Below are positions 1 through 7,424 of a stretch of 64,000 nucleotides of DNA, one piece after another (position 1 is the first letter of the stretch; every line of letters starts with the position of its first letter). Below the pieces are notes generated by a model. That model was not told where the DNA came from. It saw only the letters and a program-made list of their open reading frames with translations, and did no database searches. Origin of the DNA: an uncultured Opitutia bacterium (GTDB lineage: Bacteria > Verrucomicrobiota > Verrucomicrobiia > Opitutales > Coraliomargaritaceae). A program made the translations under genes and the position numbers. Where the stretch lies: positions 62,001 to 126,000 of the forward strand of contig CAKZOI010000021.1 of NCBI GenBank assembly GCA_937136395.1. Direction: 5' to 3'.

Positions 1-234
1 CCCATCTTTGATTCGAACGGGGTTGCAACGACCGGCAAGCTTGGGGCCAAAAATGGCTTCCCAGTTTTCAACTAGAGTTCGTTCTGGGCTTGGTTGTTCA
101 AGTTTATATTGCTCCTGTAAAACCACCAATAAGCTATCGAGTGCCATGGGGTCCTTGCACGCGGAAGTTGTCACTGTTCGCGGGAGTCCGCGAAAGTCGG
201 CGATGATATCTTCGGTGCTTTTGGTAAATTTCAT
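1..234 (-). CDS. DciA-like DUF721 protein, partial (C-terminus outside window)
   Basis: The reverse strand reads open from an ATG at 234 down to base 1, giving the first 78 residues; the gene continues beyond the window. Residues 54-70 (LVENWEAIFGPKLAGRC) match the core of the DUF721/DciA family, in which a helix with a conserved Trp is followed by a G-x-x-L-A turn. DciA proteins load or assist the replicative helicase DnaB in bacteria lacking DnaC/DnaI. The N-terminus (MKFTKSTEDIIADFRGLPR) is hydrophilic with no signal peptide, so the protein should be cytosolic. Family assignment rests on this one core motif. The start is the only ATG in the frame before the AT-rich intergenic region. Confidence 0.6.
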   Translation of the reverse strand, partial: MKFTKSTEDIIADFRGLPRTVTTSACKDPMALDSLLVVLQEQYKLEQPSPERTLVENWEAIFGPKLAGRCNPVRIKDG

Positions 235-310
235 ACTCTGTATCTAGATGTGTTATTCGGATAGTCTATTTTTTGCAAATATTTGAGCAAAAATGGATCC
301 TTTTTCCTAG

Positions 311-340
311 TTGGCATACTTAGTGTTATATTTGTTGTGT
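311..340 (+). promoter_or_regulatory. Candidate promoter of RNA copy 1
   Basis: A TTGGCA -35 box (311-316) is followed after 18 bp by TTGTGT (335-340). The predicted transcription start near 347 falls at the first hairpin of RNA copy 1. The same spacing is seen upstream of copies 2 and 3. The -10 box is a poor match to TATAAT, so this is a comparative inference. Confidence 0.35.
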
Positions 341-346
341 ATTGTT

Positions 347-430
347 TCTCCCGTGTATGGGAGTTGAGGTAATAAGACAAAGCAGAAAACAGTGTGGCGC
401 GGGGTTTAGGGGTAGGCCTCGCGCCACTAA
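347..430 (+). ncRNA. Tandem structured RNA, copy 1 (divergent)
   Basis: First of three related elements. Hairpin 1 pairs CTCCC (348-352) with GGGAG (359-363). A conserved linker TTGAGGTAATAA follows. Hairpin 2 pairs 394-404 with 417-427 around the 12-base loop TTTAGGGGTAGG, identical at 11 of 12 positions to the loop in copies 2 and 3. The stem sequence differs from those copies (GGCGCGGGG against GGCGCACTT) but the opposite arm changes to match, apart from one G-U pair. This covariation favours a selected RNA structure. Unlike copies 2 and 3 there is no clear T-tract after hairpin 2, so termination is less certain here. The RNA family is not one I recognise. Confidence 0.5.
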
Positions 431-476
431 TGTTTTACCAGAGAGGGTGTAAATGAATAGCTGTTGTATTATTAAA

Positions 477-495
477 ACTTATTCTAAGAATAAGT
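477..495. promoter_or_regulatory. Palindromic box upstream of RNA copy 2
   Basis: ACTTATTCTAAGAATAAGT is a perfect 19-bp palindrome apart from its central base. It runs into AAATTAAGTA. The same block (4 differences in 19) occurs at 832-850. In both places the ATAAGT half-site starts exactly 41 bp upstream of the -35 box, so this could be a regulator or UP-type binding site. The protein that binds is unknown. Confidence 0.4.
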
Positions 496-530
496 AAATT
501 AAGTATTTTAACGGTTTTCTCTAAATGCAC

Positions 531-560
531 TTGAAAATACTTAATAAGTGTGAATTGTAT
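531..560 (+). promoter_or_regulatory. Candidate promoter of RNA copy 2
   Basis: TTGAAA (531-536), an 18-bp spacer and TTGTAT (555-560) would start transcription near 567, just before the first hairpin at 574. Spacing is identical to copies 1 and 3. Confidence 0.4.
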
Positions 561-566
561 GTGAAA

Positions 567-656
567 TCAGTTTTTTCCCGCATGGGAAATTGGGGTAACA
601 AATAAAGTAGACAATGGTTGGCGCACTTCTTAGGGGTAGGAAGTGCGCCTTTTTGT
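567..656 (+). ncRNA. Tandem structured RNA, copy 2, with terminator
   Basis: Hairpin 1 pairs TTTCCC (574-579) with GGGAAA (584-589) around GCAT. The linker TTGGGGTAACAAATAAAGTA (590-609) is almost identical to copy 3. Hairpin 2 is a perfect 9-bp stem (620-628 with 641-649) around CTTAGGGGTAGG, followed by T5, so it also reads as an intrinsic terminator. Relative to copy 3 there is one extra base between ACAATGG and the second stem; this shifts any reading frame while leaving the structure intact, which argues against a coding role. Predicted RNA length is about 85-90 nt. Confidence 0.6.
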
Positions 657-831
657 GCGCAAAAGTTCCTGCGCACCAATCGCCTAGGTAAATGATTCAC
701 ACGTTCTATGTCGGAGAGCATCCCTTTACACGTGTCGCTTCGATGTCTCGACGGACCCGGTAATTCATCGAATTGTATCCGCTGCTCGTAGTTCTTTTTG
801 TCGCTAAATTCTCGCCTTTGTGATTAGGTGA

Positions 832-850
832 ACTAATTCTAGTTATAAGT
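832..850. promoter_or_regulatory. Palindrome-like box upstream of RNA copy 3
   Basis: ACTAATTCTAGTTATAAGT aligns with the palindrome at 477-495 and is followed by the shared GAATTAAGTA. Its distance to the -35 box matches that of copy 2 exactly. The dyad is less perfect here. Confidence 0.35.
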
Positions 851-885
851 GAATTAAGTAAGTGCTCATCTTTATGCAAATGGGC

Positions 886-915
886 TTGTCTGCATTTTAT
901 TTTTGTGGATTGTTA
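886..915 (+). promoter_or_regulatory. Candidate promoter of RNA copy 3
   Basis: TTGTCT (886-891), an 18-bp spacer and TTGTTA (910-915) predict a start near 922, about 9 bases before the first hairpin. The arrangement matches copies 1 and 2. Confidence 0.4.
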
Positions 916-921
916 TTTTCA

Positions 922-1010
922 TCAACATTTCTCCCGCAAGGGAGTTTGGGGTAACAAATAAAGTAGACAATGGTGGCGCACTTCTTAGGGGTAGGAAGTG
1001 CGCCTTTTTT
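922..1010 (+). ncRNA. Tandem structured RNA, copy 3, with terminator
   Basis: Hairpin 1 pairs CTCCC (931-935) with GGGAG (940-944) around GCAA. The linker carries GGGGTAACAAATAAAGTAGA (948-967). Hairpin 2 is a 9-bp perfect stem (975-983 with 996-1004), loop CTTAGGGGTAGG, then T6: a strong intrinsic terminator on the plus strand. Hairpin 1 has C-T/A-G pairs where copy 2 has T-T/A-A pairs, again with both arms changing together. It could be a trans-acting small RNA or, less likely, an attenuated leader for the AsmA-like gene 190 bp downstream. Confidence 0.6.
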
Positions 1011-1195
1011 GTGCAGAATTCTTGGAAGTTTTACGGCTTGAAGAGCACCTTATCGCTTAGTGATAGAGCGATTAAGCACCCACGCTAGCGGCTATTTCAT
1101 TCTGCGTGCGTTCTAGATTCTTGTTTAAGGTAAACAGGAACCTTGCGCAGTTCTACATTTCCAATAGCTTACATTCTATACCCGTAAATCTATTT

Positions 1196-4165
1196 ATGAA
1201 GACACTGTTCCGTATCTGTTTAATCTGCTTCGTCCTGTTAGTTGTTATCTTGGGTGCAGGCTATTTAGTCCTCACAAATGCCGGTTTTCAGAAGCGGATA
1301 TTGGAAGGTAAATTGCCCGCAGGTAGTTCGGTAAAGCATGTTCACGTGACTACCGGCGCCCTTAAGTTGTCTGAGCTGATTCTCGTTTTGCCAGACGGCA
1401 CACGTGTGAAAGTGGAGGGTGTGGATACATCATTTTCGCCACTAGCTGCGCTTTTTGAGAACACGATTCAACTAGGGGCTTTGGAAGTTGATGGGTTGAT
1501 GGTGCAATTGCCAAGTGCCGCAGTCGTTGGGGGTGAGCCCAGTTCTGTGTCGACTGATAGAGTCGTCGCAACTGGAGCAGATCAACCGATGGTCCCTCGG
1601 GGGGCTGTGGAAGTTCAGCCCGCAGGGAATCCATGGGACCTGGTGAATGCGATCGGTAATTTAGAATGGTTGCTGGATATTGAAACGATTCAGTTTAACG
1701 GCCAGATCAAGGATGCCGCGGGCACGACTTATGCCTTTGATGTCAAATCCGGAGCGATACGCCCAAGTGCTGAGACAGTAGTTGATGCATCTTTGCAGTT
1801 AATTTCCAGCGATCCTATTCAGTCTGGTTTGAAAGAGTTTGATTCAAGCGTTTTGTTGCGCTTTACGCAGAAGACCCATGGGGGCTTTGAGCAAATTCAT
1901 TTCGCGTCGAAGACTTCAGGTAAAGATGCCCGCGGTCGCGAGGTCTTATCGCTCGGCAACGAAGTGGATTTGGTATTCGACGGATTTCAAGAGACTGCAA
2001 GTTTGAAAGTCGATTTTAATGCGGACGTGCAACGGCCTGAAATGTTTGTGCCAGAATTGGCAAGTCTGGGTGTGCTCAAGCTGAACGGTCGCGCGCAAGC
2101 AAAGGTTGATGGAGTTGTGACGACCTTATCGGATGCAGGGCTTGAGCTCTCCGCCAATGGTGTAGAAGTGTTGGTTCTTGATTTGAAGAAAACTTTGAAT
2201 CTTGGAGGTAAGCAAGATTTGAGTGGCGAGTTACTAGAGTTGAGGCTCATCGAATTGCCATTCACATGGCTGGCTCCGTGGTTGCCAGAGGGAATGTCTA
2301 TAGTCGGGGCTCCGATAAATGCTCAGATCGGCGTGCAGGGGCTTGTGGATGGGGCGATGGAAGTGACCACTCAAGCACCTCTTCGCATCGGTCCGATTAC
2401 AGTGCAAAATGCGGGTCAAAATCTGCTGCAAGAAGCCACAGTGGTGCTCGATCCTGTGATTCGGGTGAATGCGGATCAGTCCATTAATTATGATTTCAAG
2501 ACCTTCCAATTAATAGACCGCTATGGTGAAGTAATGAGCGGCACGCTCAGTGGTCAGTCAAAAAAGGTGGAGGTGCGGAGTCACCCATTTGCTGGGCATA
2601 TTGCGGATGTGAAATTGAACATTGGGCTTCAAGAGCTCTTTCAACAACCAATACTTAAGGATAAAGCATCGATATTGGGTGGCACTTTAGCCCTAAGCCT
2701 AAAAGTTGACGGTGAGAGTGCATATCCTTTGACGGCTCAAGGTGCTATACAGGGCTTACGGCCACGTTCGGCTCCTGGTAGCATTAAAGATTATCGTTTT
2801 GCATCCCAGTTAAAGGCAATACAATCGAATGTTTGGGAGCTTGGCTTGAATGTTGAATCTGGTTCAGTCGATCGTCCCAGCACTGTTTTTCAGTTGTCGG
2901 GGCAGGCCAATATTGAGGCGAGTCCGTTAACCTTTGAAGTCGACCTTAAAGGAGCTCAAGTCACCCAAGCAGATTTAGATGTATTTGTAGCTGCCTTCTC
3001 GCCAAACGAGTCTACTACAAGAATTCCCCCTGCCTCAAATATCTTGCCCCGGATAAATGACAGGCCAATGGAAGCCGATTCGTCGACACCGGCACCAGTC
3101 GAATCACCTATGCCGCCACCTTGGTCGGATCTTAACGGTAAAGCATCGATTCATCTGGATCGTGTAGTGCTGAAATCGGGGCAAACGGTTCGTGATATCG
3201 CCGCTCATGTGGTCATTTCTGAACCACTCTTTCAAGTGAGTGGCGTGACTGCTCAACTGGGCGAGGGCAGGATTCAAGGCGCGGGTGAAGTTCGCTATCA
3301 AGAGACTCAAGCAAATGCGTATATGATGCTTGCTGATTTTGGATTTCAACAAATTAATCCGTCGGTATTTTCGCAGAAGCGCTCAAGGGGGTTTCCTTTG
3401 AAAGGTGTGTTCGATGGTCAATTCAAATTCACAGGTGCCGGTTCGAGCCTTGAAGAGGCAGCTGATAATTCAGTAGGTGATCTAATTATTACGGGACGTA
3501 AAGGCGTTGTGACTGCTTTTGAGCTCGATAACCGCAGTCAGCTAGGACTTGGTATCGTTGGCCTGCTGGGGCAACAATTTGATCGGCCTGGTATTGCTGC
3601 ACTTGCAGAGACGGTGCCTTATTTTAAAGACATTCATTTTGATAACTTCATCTTGGAGCTGAAGCGTGGCGTGGATCGAAAAGTGTTGGTCCCTCAATTA
3701 CGATTTGAGGGGCAGAGTTTATTGATCAATGGATCGGGCTTTATCGCGGCCAGTAGTTTTAAGGATATAATGGAACAGCCATTGCAGCTTGGCCTAGAAC
3801 TCGGTGCCAAAGGTCGGCTTACTCAATATTTAGAAACTTTGCAGCTGTTACAGCCCACGGTTTCGGAAGATGGCTTTCGGCGCTGGACTAAATCGGTGAA
3901 TATCAGCGGCACATTACGTGATCCAGATACTGATGAGATTATGGACCTATTGAAGTCGGCGGCTCGTTCAGCTTTAGATAAGCCTAAGAATACACCACCC
4001 GTGTCCAATGCTGATCCAATCGAGGATGTGCAAACCGATGCGCAGTCAGGCGCGCCGGATCAGCAGACCTCAAGTGAGGAGTCTCGCGAGAAGACAAAAG
4101 AGGAGCGGTTACGCGATGACATCGATGTCGGGCTGGATTTATTTAACTCGGTATTCGGCGACTAA
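1196..4165 (+). CDS. AsmA/YdbH-like inner-membrane-anchored envelope protein
   Basis: A 989-residue protein with one N-terminal membrane segment (about residues 4-27) and a long beta-rich periplasmic body, the build of AsmA/TamB/YdbH bridge proteins that carry phospholipid between the membranes. A Pro-rich linker near residues 628-643 separates the body from a C-terminal module (about 640-920) with amphipathic, AsmA-like repeats and a charged tail. I start it at the ATG at 1196: the 30 upstream in-frame residues look non-coding and would put a polar stretch before the membrane anchor. No clear Shine-Dalgarno is present. Exact subfamily is uncertain; YdbH-like is attractive because ynbE/ydbL homologues lie at 33655-34256. 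Confidence 0.65.
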   Translation: MKTLFRICLICFVLLVVILGAGYLVLTNAGFQKRILEGKLPAGSSVKHVHVTTGALKLSELILVLPDGTRVKVEGVDTSFSPLAALFENTIQLGALEVDGLMVQLPSAAVVGGEPSSVSTDRVVATGADQPMVPRGAVEVQPAGNPWDLVNAIGNLEWLLDIETIQFNGQIKDAAGTTYAFDVKSGAIRPSAETVVDASLQLISSDPIQSGLKEFDSSVLLRFTQKTHGGFEQIHFASKTSGKDARGREVLSLGNEVDLVFDGFQETASLKVDFNADVQRPEMFVPELASLGVLKLNGRAQAKVDGVVTTLSDAGLELSANGVEVLVLDLKKTLNLGGKQDLSGELLELRLIELPFTWLAPWLPEGMSIVGAPINAQIGVQGLVDGAMEVTTQAPLRIGPITVQNAGQNLLQEATVVLDPVIRVNADQSINYDFKTFQLIDRYGEVMSGTLSGQSKKVEVRSHPFAGHIADVKLNIGLQELFQQPILKDKASILGGTLALSLKVDGESAYPLTAQGAIQGLRPRSAPGSIKDYRFASQLKAIQSNVWELGLNVESGSVDRPSTVFQLSGQANIEASPLTFEVDLKGAQVTQADLDVFVAAFSPNESTTRIPPASNILPRINDRPMEADSSTPAPVESPMPPPWSDLNGKASIHLDRVVLKSGQTVRDIAAHVVISEPLFQVSGVTAQLGEGRIQGAGEVRYQETQANAYMMLADFGFQQINPSVFSQKRSRGFPLKGVFDGQFKFTGAGSSLEEAADNSVGDLIITGRKGVVTAFELDNRSQLGLGIVGLLGQQFDRPGIAALAETVPYFKDIHFDNFILELKRGVDRKVLVPQLRFEGQSLLINGSGFIAASSFKDIMEQPLQLGLELGAKGRLTQYLETLQLLQPTVSEDGFRRWTKSVNISGTLRDPDTDEIMDLLKSAARSALDKPKNTPPVSNADPIEDVQTDAQSGAPDQQTSSEESREKTKEERLRDDIDVGLDLFNSVFGD

Positions 4166-5561: not shown

Positions 5562-7424
5562 ATGAATAAAGAGGCAATTGACGCACTCATTGAGAAAAAT
5601 CCTAAACTTGTTTCGGCTCGCGCGAAACTTGAAACCATGTCTGCAGGCAATTATTGCCTACACCGCAGCTGGGGTTTCGGTAAGATCGTGGACTATGACG
5701 AAGCGAATGATCGCATCATCATCGACTTTGAAGATGGTAAAGACGGTCACGCCATGGCACCAGCATTCTGTGTCGATAAGTTGGAGATATTAAAGCCAGA
5801 TGACGTTTTGGTTCGTTCTCGTATCGAACCAGATGTGATTGAAGAAATGATCAAGAAGCGCCCAGCTGATTTGATGTGTGATATTTTAAAGACATCGGAC
5901 AATCAGGCGCTGATGACTACAGAGATCGAACGTATTCTGTCACGCGTTATAGGGCCAATCAAATACAAGAAGTGGTGGACCGCGACCAAGAAACTTCTCG
6001 TTGTAGATCCTCGTGTGGGAGCCCCGATCAAAAAATCGGATCCATACATTTATCGCGACGAGCCAGTGAAGCCTGAAGAAGAAATTCTTGAGCAGTTTCA
6101 CGCGACAAAAAATTCTAAGCAAAAGATCCTTCTTGGCGAAAAACTATATGCGCTTTCCGAAGACATCTCAGTTGTTCGCGAAGAAATGCCACAAATTCTT
6201 GAGGAGTTGACCGATTCGATTGCCAACGCGAAAAGTCTCAGCCAAGCAGATCGCCTGCATGGTGTGTGGGTGCGTAACAATCTCGCACGCGATTTGCATG
6301 AAGATGTTGAAGTGCTCGAGCCATCTTCTGCATCTATCCTCGACTCCACAGTCGATTACTCCGAGTTGGCTGCTGAGCTGCCTGCGACCTATTTTAAGCG
6401 TTACCTCGATTTGATCAGACGCACCTACCCAGATAAATGGCAGGCTATGATCGAAGATCTGCTCCGCAATTCCAGTGGTAAGTTCACCAGTGAGTGTATT
6501 AACTTCATGCTAGAGCAGGAGCTCGATGAACGTATTAGCTACTGCTTAAATCGCTGGTTGAACGAGCAAACTATTAAAGGTCCTCTTCTTTTCTGGGTGG
6601 TTAAGAATCGTCACTCCAAGAAGTATGCTTCGATTATCGAGCCATTGGTCACTCCGCGTTTGCTGGCTGCGATGTTCTATGCAATTGACTATGAGTCGCT
6701 TCAGAATGCAAGCACGCGTCGCATACCACTTGCTGACTTGCTCAGCGATGACAAGGATTTGATCCCGGATTTGCTTGCCGATGCCAACGTCGAAACCGCA
6801 CGTGATCTTGCTCAAACACTCTTATTGAATCAAGGGTTTGAGGATTTGACTAAAAAGTCGCTACTCGCGCGTTTCATTAAGAAATTCCCAACAATTCAAA
6901 GTCTGCTTGCTGGCGAGGCTGCTGAATCTTCAGAAGACGACGCACTCATCGTTTCTCAAGAAAGCTTCAATCGTGCTAAGGAAGAATACGAAGATCTACT
7001 CGCAACGAAGATCCCTGAGAATAAGGAAGCCATCGCAGTCGCTCGTGACCACGGTGACTTGAAGGAGAATTCTGAGTATAAGATGGCACGCCAAGATCAA
7101 GATATTTTGCTCTCTCGAAAGAATGAGTTGGAAGTCGATCTTTCTCGTGCACGTGTAACCGACTTTTCCGAAGCAACTGTCGACAATGTCGGTATTGGTT
7201 GCGTGGTTGAGCTTAAAGCAGGCTCCACTGGTAAGGCCGAAACCTTCTCGATCCTTGGCGCTTGGGATTCGGACCCAGAGAATAACGTCCTCTCTTATAA
7301 GACACCACTTGCTCAGCAACTCTTGGGCAAGGAAGATGGTGAAACCGTCACCACCAAAATTGGAGGTAACGAAGAACAGTGGACCATCCTCAGGATTAAA
7401 CGCTGGTTGGACGTAAAGAAGTAG
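5562..7424 (+). CDS. GreA-type transcript cleavage factor with long N-terminal arm
   Basis: 620 residues, about four times the length of ordinary GreA. The last ~160 residues are Gre: a coiled coil (about 460-535) with the acidic tip GDLKENSEY near residue 498, equivalent to the catalytic Asp/Glu tip that enters the RNA polymerase secondary channel, then an FKBP-like domain to the end. The first ~450 residues are mostly helical, with a small Trp/Gly-rich beta patch near 20-60 (HRSWGFGKIVDYDEANDRII). Chlamydial GreA has a comparable long N-terminal part. I start at the ATG at 5562; the 20 upstream in-frame residues are not conserved-looking and overlap the divergent promoter region. Confidence 0.8.
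   Translation: MNKEAIDALIEKNPKLVSARAKLETMSAGNYCLHRSWGFGKIVDYDEANDRIIIDFEDGKDGHAMAPAFCVDKLEILKPDDVLVRSRIEPDVIEEMIKKRPADLMCDILKTSDNQALMTTEIERILSRVIGPIKYKKWWTATKKLLVVDPRVGAPIKKSDPYIYRDEPVKPEEEILEQFHATKNSKQKILLGEKLYALSEDISVVREEMPQILEELTDSIANAKSLSQADRLHGVWVRNNLARDLHEDVEVLEPSSASILDSTVDYSELAAELPATYFKRYLDLIRRTYPDKWQAMIEDLLRNSSGKFTSECINFMLEQELDERISYCLNRWLNEQTIKGPLLFWVVKNRHSKKYASIIEPLVTPRLLAAMFYAIDYESLQNASTRRIPLADLLSDDKDLIPDLLADANVETARDLAQTLLLNQGFEDLTKKSLLARFIKKFPTIQSLLAGEAAESSEDDALIVSQESFNRAKEEYEDLLATKIPENKEAIAVARDHGDLKENSEYKMARQDQDILLSRKNELEVDLSRARVTDFSEATVDNVGIGCVVELKAGSTGKAETFSILGAWDSDPENNVLSYKTPLAQQLLGKEDGETVTTKIGGNEEQWTILRIKRWLDVKK

Follow-up and report, generated by a model that had tools for sequence, protein, structure and literature searches.

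A family of tandem two-hairpin small RNAs in the Opitutales, apparently undescribed

The window, i.e. the whole 64-kb stretch of DNA analysed here, begins with a dciA-like gene on the minus strand (1–234; Pfam DciA, 27.1 bits) that extends past the window edge. Divergent from it, three two-hairpin RNA units lie on the plus strand, at 345–431, 572–655 and 928–1010, followed on the same strand by an asmA-like gene (1199–4165, ATG at 1199; Pfam AsmA, 27.4 bits, slightly under the 29.8 cut-off), which is not a constant neighbour. The three tandem units, first proposed in a sequence-only reading, are borne out by folding, with z-scores of about −4, and by a covariance model, R1, built from 18 family copies. 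On the window, R1 matches copies 1, 2 and 3 with 84.5, 100.5 and 98.7 bits (E 2e-17, 5e-21 and 1.3e-20) and nothing else. The RNAs themselves are placed at 338–440, 567–655 and 922–1010. All three share the core TTAGGGGTAGG, whose other matches in the genome are confined to one telomere-like contig end. A 6-kb contig of the same assembly (G000:C77) carries a TTAGGG array in its last ∼60 bases, to position 6041 (L004 1455–1516); this vertebrate-type telomere repeat probably marks a eukaryotic contaminant.

Each copy consists of a short 5′ hairpin, a linker of ∼30 nt and a second hairpin of 13 bp. In copy 1, hairpin 1 (CUCCC-GUGUAU-GGGAG, 348–363) is followed by the linker UUGAGGUAAUAAGACAAAGCAGAAAACAGU (364–393) and by hairpin 2 (394–427), with a GGGG tetraloop at 409–412. 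In copy 2, hairpin 1 (UUUCCC-GCAU-GGGAAA, 574–589) precedes a linker motif GGGGUA (592–597) and a hairpin 2 with U-tract (620–654; GGGG loop at 633–636). Copy 3 has the same order, with hairpin 1 (CUCCC-GCAA-GGGAG) at 931–944, GGGGUA at 948–953 and hairpin 2 plus U-tract at 975–1010 (GGGG loop at 988–991). The sequence-only reading took TTAGGGGTAGG for an invariant loop; its invariance in the window stands, but most of it is stem (U–G, U–A and A–U pairs) around the GGGG tetraloop. Across the family alignments, the unpaired linker and the tetraloop are near-invariant, and GGGGUA is therefore presented twice. A UA-GGGG-UA loop occurs in 127 of 127 distinct copies, in a collection whose search pattern itself demanded part of that loop. 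In the linker of one class of copies (type A, below), two genera have an extra GC-rich hairpin, which separates GGGGUAA from AAAGUAGACAAUGG without disrupting either motif (loci L038, L040, L044, L048, L049, L051 and L058).

The compensating changes proposed for both stems hold in the wider comparison. In stem 2 of the 18 family copies, all 233 of 233 cells are standard pairs, against a shuffled mean of 80.5%; both sides have changed in 7 of the 13 pairs, with a covariation score of 0.54, compared with 0.16 for shuffles. Because loop indels made MAFFT misalign hairpin 1, it was examined apart from the main alignment, in 28 distinct Opitutaceae versions. These were anchored on the two inner pairs, which are therefore excluded from the count; among the outer pairs, 127 of 140 cells are paired, whereas 2000 shuffles average 107 and reach at most 115. 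Comparison thus shows both hairpins to be under base-pair selection. RNAalifold offered an alternative fold, in which the 5′ CUCCC pairs with the GGGG of the linker; in hairpin 1 variants such as CATCTGC/GCAGATG the GGGG persists without such pairing, and the alternative was set aside. A coding function was also rejected. The one-base indel noticed between copies 2 and 3 is present (TGGTTGGC/TGGTGGC), linker length varies, and the copies have neither a start nor a reading frame in common.

The strand is fixed by the terminators. In 121 of 127 distinct copies, hairpin 2 runs into a U-tract, which puts the predicted transcript on the plus strand. Copies 2 and 3 end, as had been claimed, in terminator-like stems with U-tracts, predicted to be intrinsic terminators, and the terminator of copy 1 is weaker. 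A functional RNA on the other strand would expose C-rich loops (CUACCCCUAAG) and resemble anti-Shine–Dalgarno sRNAs; C-rich loops are indeed frequent in sRNAs of Hfq-poor bacteria. This reading is hardly credible, since an A-rich upstream flank, which would be the U-tract on the minus strand, is found in just 5 of 118 copies, the conserved G–U pairs of the stems would become A–C, and the predicted promoter signatures lie on the plus strand.

Two paralogues can be told apart by linker sequence. Type A, represented by copies 2 and 3, is order-wide and has the linker GGGGUAACAGAAUAAAGUAGACAAUGG. Type B, represented by copy 1 and assigned by its linker GGGGUAAUAAGACAAAGCAGAAAACAGUG, is recognized in the family of the window's genome only; where a family genome carries both, it mostly lies directly 5′ of type A, often beside dciA. 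The conserved linker of the sequence-only reading therefore needs qualifying: GGGGUA is found in copies 2 and 3, but copy 1, a distinct paralogue, has GAGGTAA in place of the GGGGTAA seen in most relatives.

The two types also differ in their predicted promoters, sigma-70-like for type A and sigma-54-like for type B. The paired boxes 18 bp apart, earlier assigned to every copy, are weak in the window: TTGAAA and TTGTAT for copy 2 (531–560), TTGTCT and TTGTTA for copy 3 (886–915), both from sequence reading, and a promoter scan of the locus found no plus-strand sigma-70 site. Among relatives, 49 of 69 type A copies have a −35-like TTGAC/TTGC box 40–75 nt 5′ of the linker motif, against 11% of shuffles. 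Copy 1 instead has a sigma-54-like −24/−12 element, TTGGCATACTTAGTGTT (311–327), with a predicted start at about 338. Type B copies share TTGGCAC-N5-TG(T/C), near the sigma-54 −24/−12 layout (TGGCACG-N4-TTGC(A/T), at fixed spacing). The consensus is matched at 9 of 13 positions in copy 1, weaker than in most relatives, and 17 type B relatives score 9–12; at least 10 positions are matched in 14 of 17 type B copies, against 3 of 71 type A copies and 2% of shuffles. Of 44 family genomes, 40 encode RpoN itself, among them 20 of 20 of high quality. At three loci of one family (L054, L082 and L083), a sigma-70-like TTGAC(A/T) box abuts a TTGGC(A/C)C sigma-54-like stretch 5′ of the RNA, as if the promoters overlapped, as in glmY of Escherichia coli.

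A 29-bp palindromic element, ACTWATNCTNNNWATAAGTNNNNTWAGTA, precedes type A in the window's genus. The palindrome pointed out in the sequence-only reading is real, with no chance match in shuffles, but limited to copies 2 and 3 (ACTTATTCTAAGAATAAGTAAATTAAGTA at 477–505 and ACTAATTCTAGTTATAAGTGAATTAAGTA at 832–860); copy 1 has none. The 44 family genomes contain four matches, every one beside these RNA genes and within the window's genus, and looser versions stand 5′ of type A in other genera. The element looks like a dedicated operator.

The family extends over most of the order. R1 matches 249 of 373 Opitutales genomes (79 of 100 genera) and none of ∼325 phylum genomes outside the order; all 59 positive genomes of a phylum-wide sample fall within it. 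Matching genomes carry 1–6 copies, often in tandem. Names attached to matches include Opitutales, Opitutaceae, Puniceicoccaceae, Pelagicoccus, Cerasicoccus, Ereboglobus and IMCC26134. Within the order, seven families are without a match among the genomes listed. They are represented by small genomes (∼0.8–1.5 Mb), so that loss of the RNA in reduced genomes is likely, an impression drawn from those listed. A strong copy (53 bits, L146 834–909) stands on a contig filed as Parcubacteria GW2011_GWA2_36_10, which is probably mis-binned Opitutales DNA. Phage and plasmid searches gave no match, and a mobile element is not supported; two IMG/VR pattern matches were attributed to chance, as they lie in tail-gene contigs negative with the covariance model.

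Rfam 15 (4227 families, gathering threshold) yields only sub-threshold matches in window positions 1–3000, e.g. mir-4018 at 24.2 bits against a threshold of 66, and a search of 16 diverse RNA loci returns tRNAs and no other family. The literature searched holds no description of the RNA, though one may exist elsewhere. For comparison, an Rfam-based count gives eight distinct sRNAs for the whole PVC group (PMC9029176). Order-wide homologues, compensatory changes, the negative Rfam result, and predicted promoters and terminators on the same strand strongly support the earlier suggestion of a multi-copy small-RNA set outside known families. We regard it as a real and widespread small-RNA family of the Opitutales, apparently undescribed. 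The family is new but its kind, that of sibling sRNAs, is known: there are several homologous free-standing RNA genes with their own terminators and predicted promoters, and a conserved secondary structure supported by covariation.

That the RNA is free-standing follows from its neighbours, which vary between lineages (DciA, a YgfZ-like protein with a GCV_T domain, DAHP synthase, DinB, a UvrB/C-motif protein and others). A dciA-like gene lies 5′ of it in many family genomes. That the RNA acts in cis, as leader or attenuator of the gene downstream, might be suspected from the terminator at the end of each RNA and from the same-strand DAHP synthase gene that follows it in many Opitutaceae. Such a role is very unlikely, because the downstream genes change with lineage, the nearest downstream open reading frame is on the opposite strand at 58 of 148 loci, and the next element after copy 1 is another RNA copy.

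Several known systems offer partial parallels. LhrC of Listeria is encoded in redundant copies with C/U-rich seeds, and Qrr of Vibrio in redundant copies that are Hfq-dependent and under sigma-54 control. The Opitutales RNAs resemble both in copy redundancy, and Qrr also in sigma-54 control, here predicted, but their motif is not C/U-rich like the LhrC seeds, Hfq, on which Qrr depends, is absent from the sampled genomes, and there is no homology by Rfam. CsrB/RsmX-type sponges likewise repeat a short motif in loops and linkers and are present in several gene copies; CsrA sites carry a GGA core. The layout of the Opitutales RNAs is similar, but such a sponge was rejected as CsrA is missing from the sampled family genomes (that of the window, G000, and five others) and GGGGUA holds no GGA.

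A matching layout is seen in NmsRA and NmsRB of Neisseria meningitidis, which are tandem, structurally near-identical siblings. Their recognition sequence is exposed twice, once in the linker that follows stem-loop 1 and once in the loop of stem-loop 2, and they act by base pairing with mRNAs (PMC5362039). The NmsR motifs, unlike those described here, are UC-rich, pair with Shine–Dalgarno sequences and belong to RNAs of three stem-loops (PMC5362039); the Opitutales motif is G-rich and unable to pair with Shine–Dalgarno sequences, and there is no sequence relation. Because the NmsR siblings use the same two-site layout, a reading based on mRNA pairing is favoured by analogy. Chaperones of the usual kind would not take part, since neither Hfq (0 of 103) nor ProQ (0 of 87) was found in the sampled genomes of the order; any pairing would therefore be independent of both, and membership in the Hfq- or ProQ-dependent sRNAs was rejected.

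The sequence-only reading also suggested that the G-rich loop pairs with C-rich targets; this is not supported by the tests made, which reveal neither enrichment nor a conserved site. Targets were sought with k-mers and duplex energies in one nearly complete relative (G037; 1,697 predicted genes) and with orthologues in part of a second genome (G043). In the first, UACCCC-type complements are not enriched around starts, a negative weakened by the simple rule used to call starts; the reversed control has 8-nt matches in as many start regions as the complement itself (15 genes each), and duplex energies at starts stay within the range of shuffled motifs. Two candidates, a nucleoside-transporter-like gene with CCTACCCCT 5′ of its start and a fucose-permease-like MFS gene with TTACCCCAAA in the same position (both named by sequence reading, not family search), were rejected, as neither site is conserved beyond near-identical orthologues. 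In 44 genomes, the complement of the entire 11-nt loop hardly occurs outside the RNA genes themselves. The seed-like motifs of linker and loop are conserved, and an enriched or conserved mRNA complement was not found in the nearly complete relative.

As no enriched, conserved or energetically unusual sites emerged, a protein partner becomes a serious rival. The repeated GGGGUA would then titrate or guide an RNA-binding protein, with no role for mRNA pairing. Its presence in two structural settings, the many gene copies, single-stranded blocks invariant past seed length and start regions devoid of seed-match enrichment all point this way. The known candidates do not fit: CsrA, the classical partner, is not in the family genomes tested and is patchy in the order (18 of 87 genomes), its GGA core is lacking from the motif, and Hfq and ProQ are missing. 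A protein-binding or sponge RNA is a tentative proposal, and an mRNA is favoured over a protein as the partner.

A further scheme is suggested by GlmY and GlmZ of enterobacteria (PMC7073468, PMC6075780), two homologous sRNAs, one of them transcribed from a sigma-54 promoter. A homologous pair with sigma-54 control of one gene is found here too, by prediction only. Type B, under sigma-54 control, would titrate a shared decay or adaptor protein and so spare type A, the sole RNA acting on targets. The common structure and loop with differing linkers, the predicted sigma-54-like promoter on type B and sigma-70-like promoter on type A, reminiscent of E. coli GlmY (sigma-54) and GlmZ (PMC7073468), and the usual position of type B, just 5′ of type A in family genomes having both, would suit such a pair. 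It is nevertheless improbable. The RNAs differ from GlmY and GlmZ in size, motifs and clade, with no sequence relation and a negative Rfam search; type B, as defined by its linker, is seen in the window's family alone while type A is order-wide; and the two glmS start regions read contain no UACCCC, so that no pairing with glmS is seen.

The mRNA-pairing reading is thus the one we retain, as plausible but about evenly poised between right and wrong. The RNAs would be trans-acting sibling sRNAs of ∼85–110 nt, intrinsically terminated and independent of Hfq and ProQ, the three members of the locus acting in trans as regulators with GGGGUA as their recognition site, displayed in the linker and again in the loop of the terminator hairpin. 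GGGGUA would most likely pair with UACCCC-containing stretches of mRNAs and alter their translation or stability. Type A may keep up a supply that is basal or under operator control, and type B may place the same output under a sigma-54 activator.

The family is present in most genera of the order, including the cultured Pelagicoccus, Cerasicoccus and Ereboglobus, and its covariance model is ready for use. It is tempting, if still doubtful, to see in it a regulatory RNA of the order's core that works without Hfq or ProQ, whose two GGGGUA sites would define either a C-rich seed regulon or an RNA-binding protein, and whose sigma-54-driven paralogue would modulate the housekeeping one. Such a family allows sRNA regulation without Hfq or ProQ, and the reader of GGGGUA, to be tested directly.
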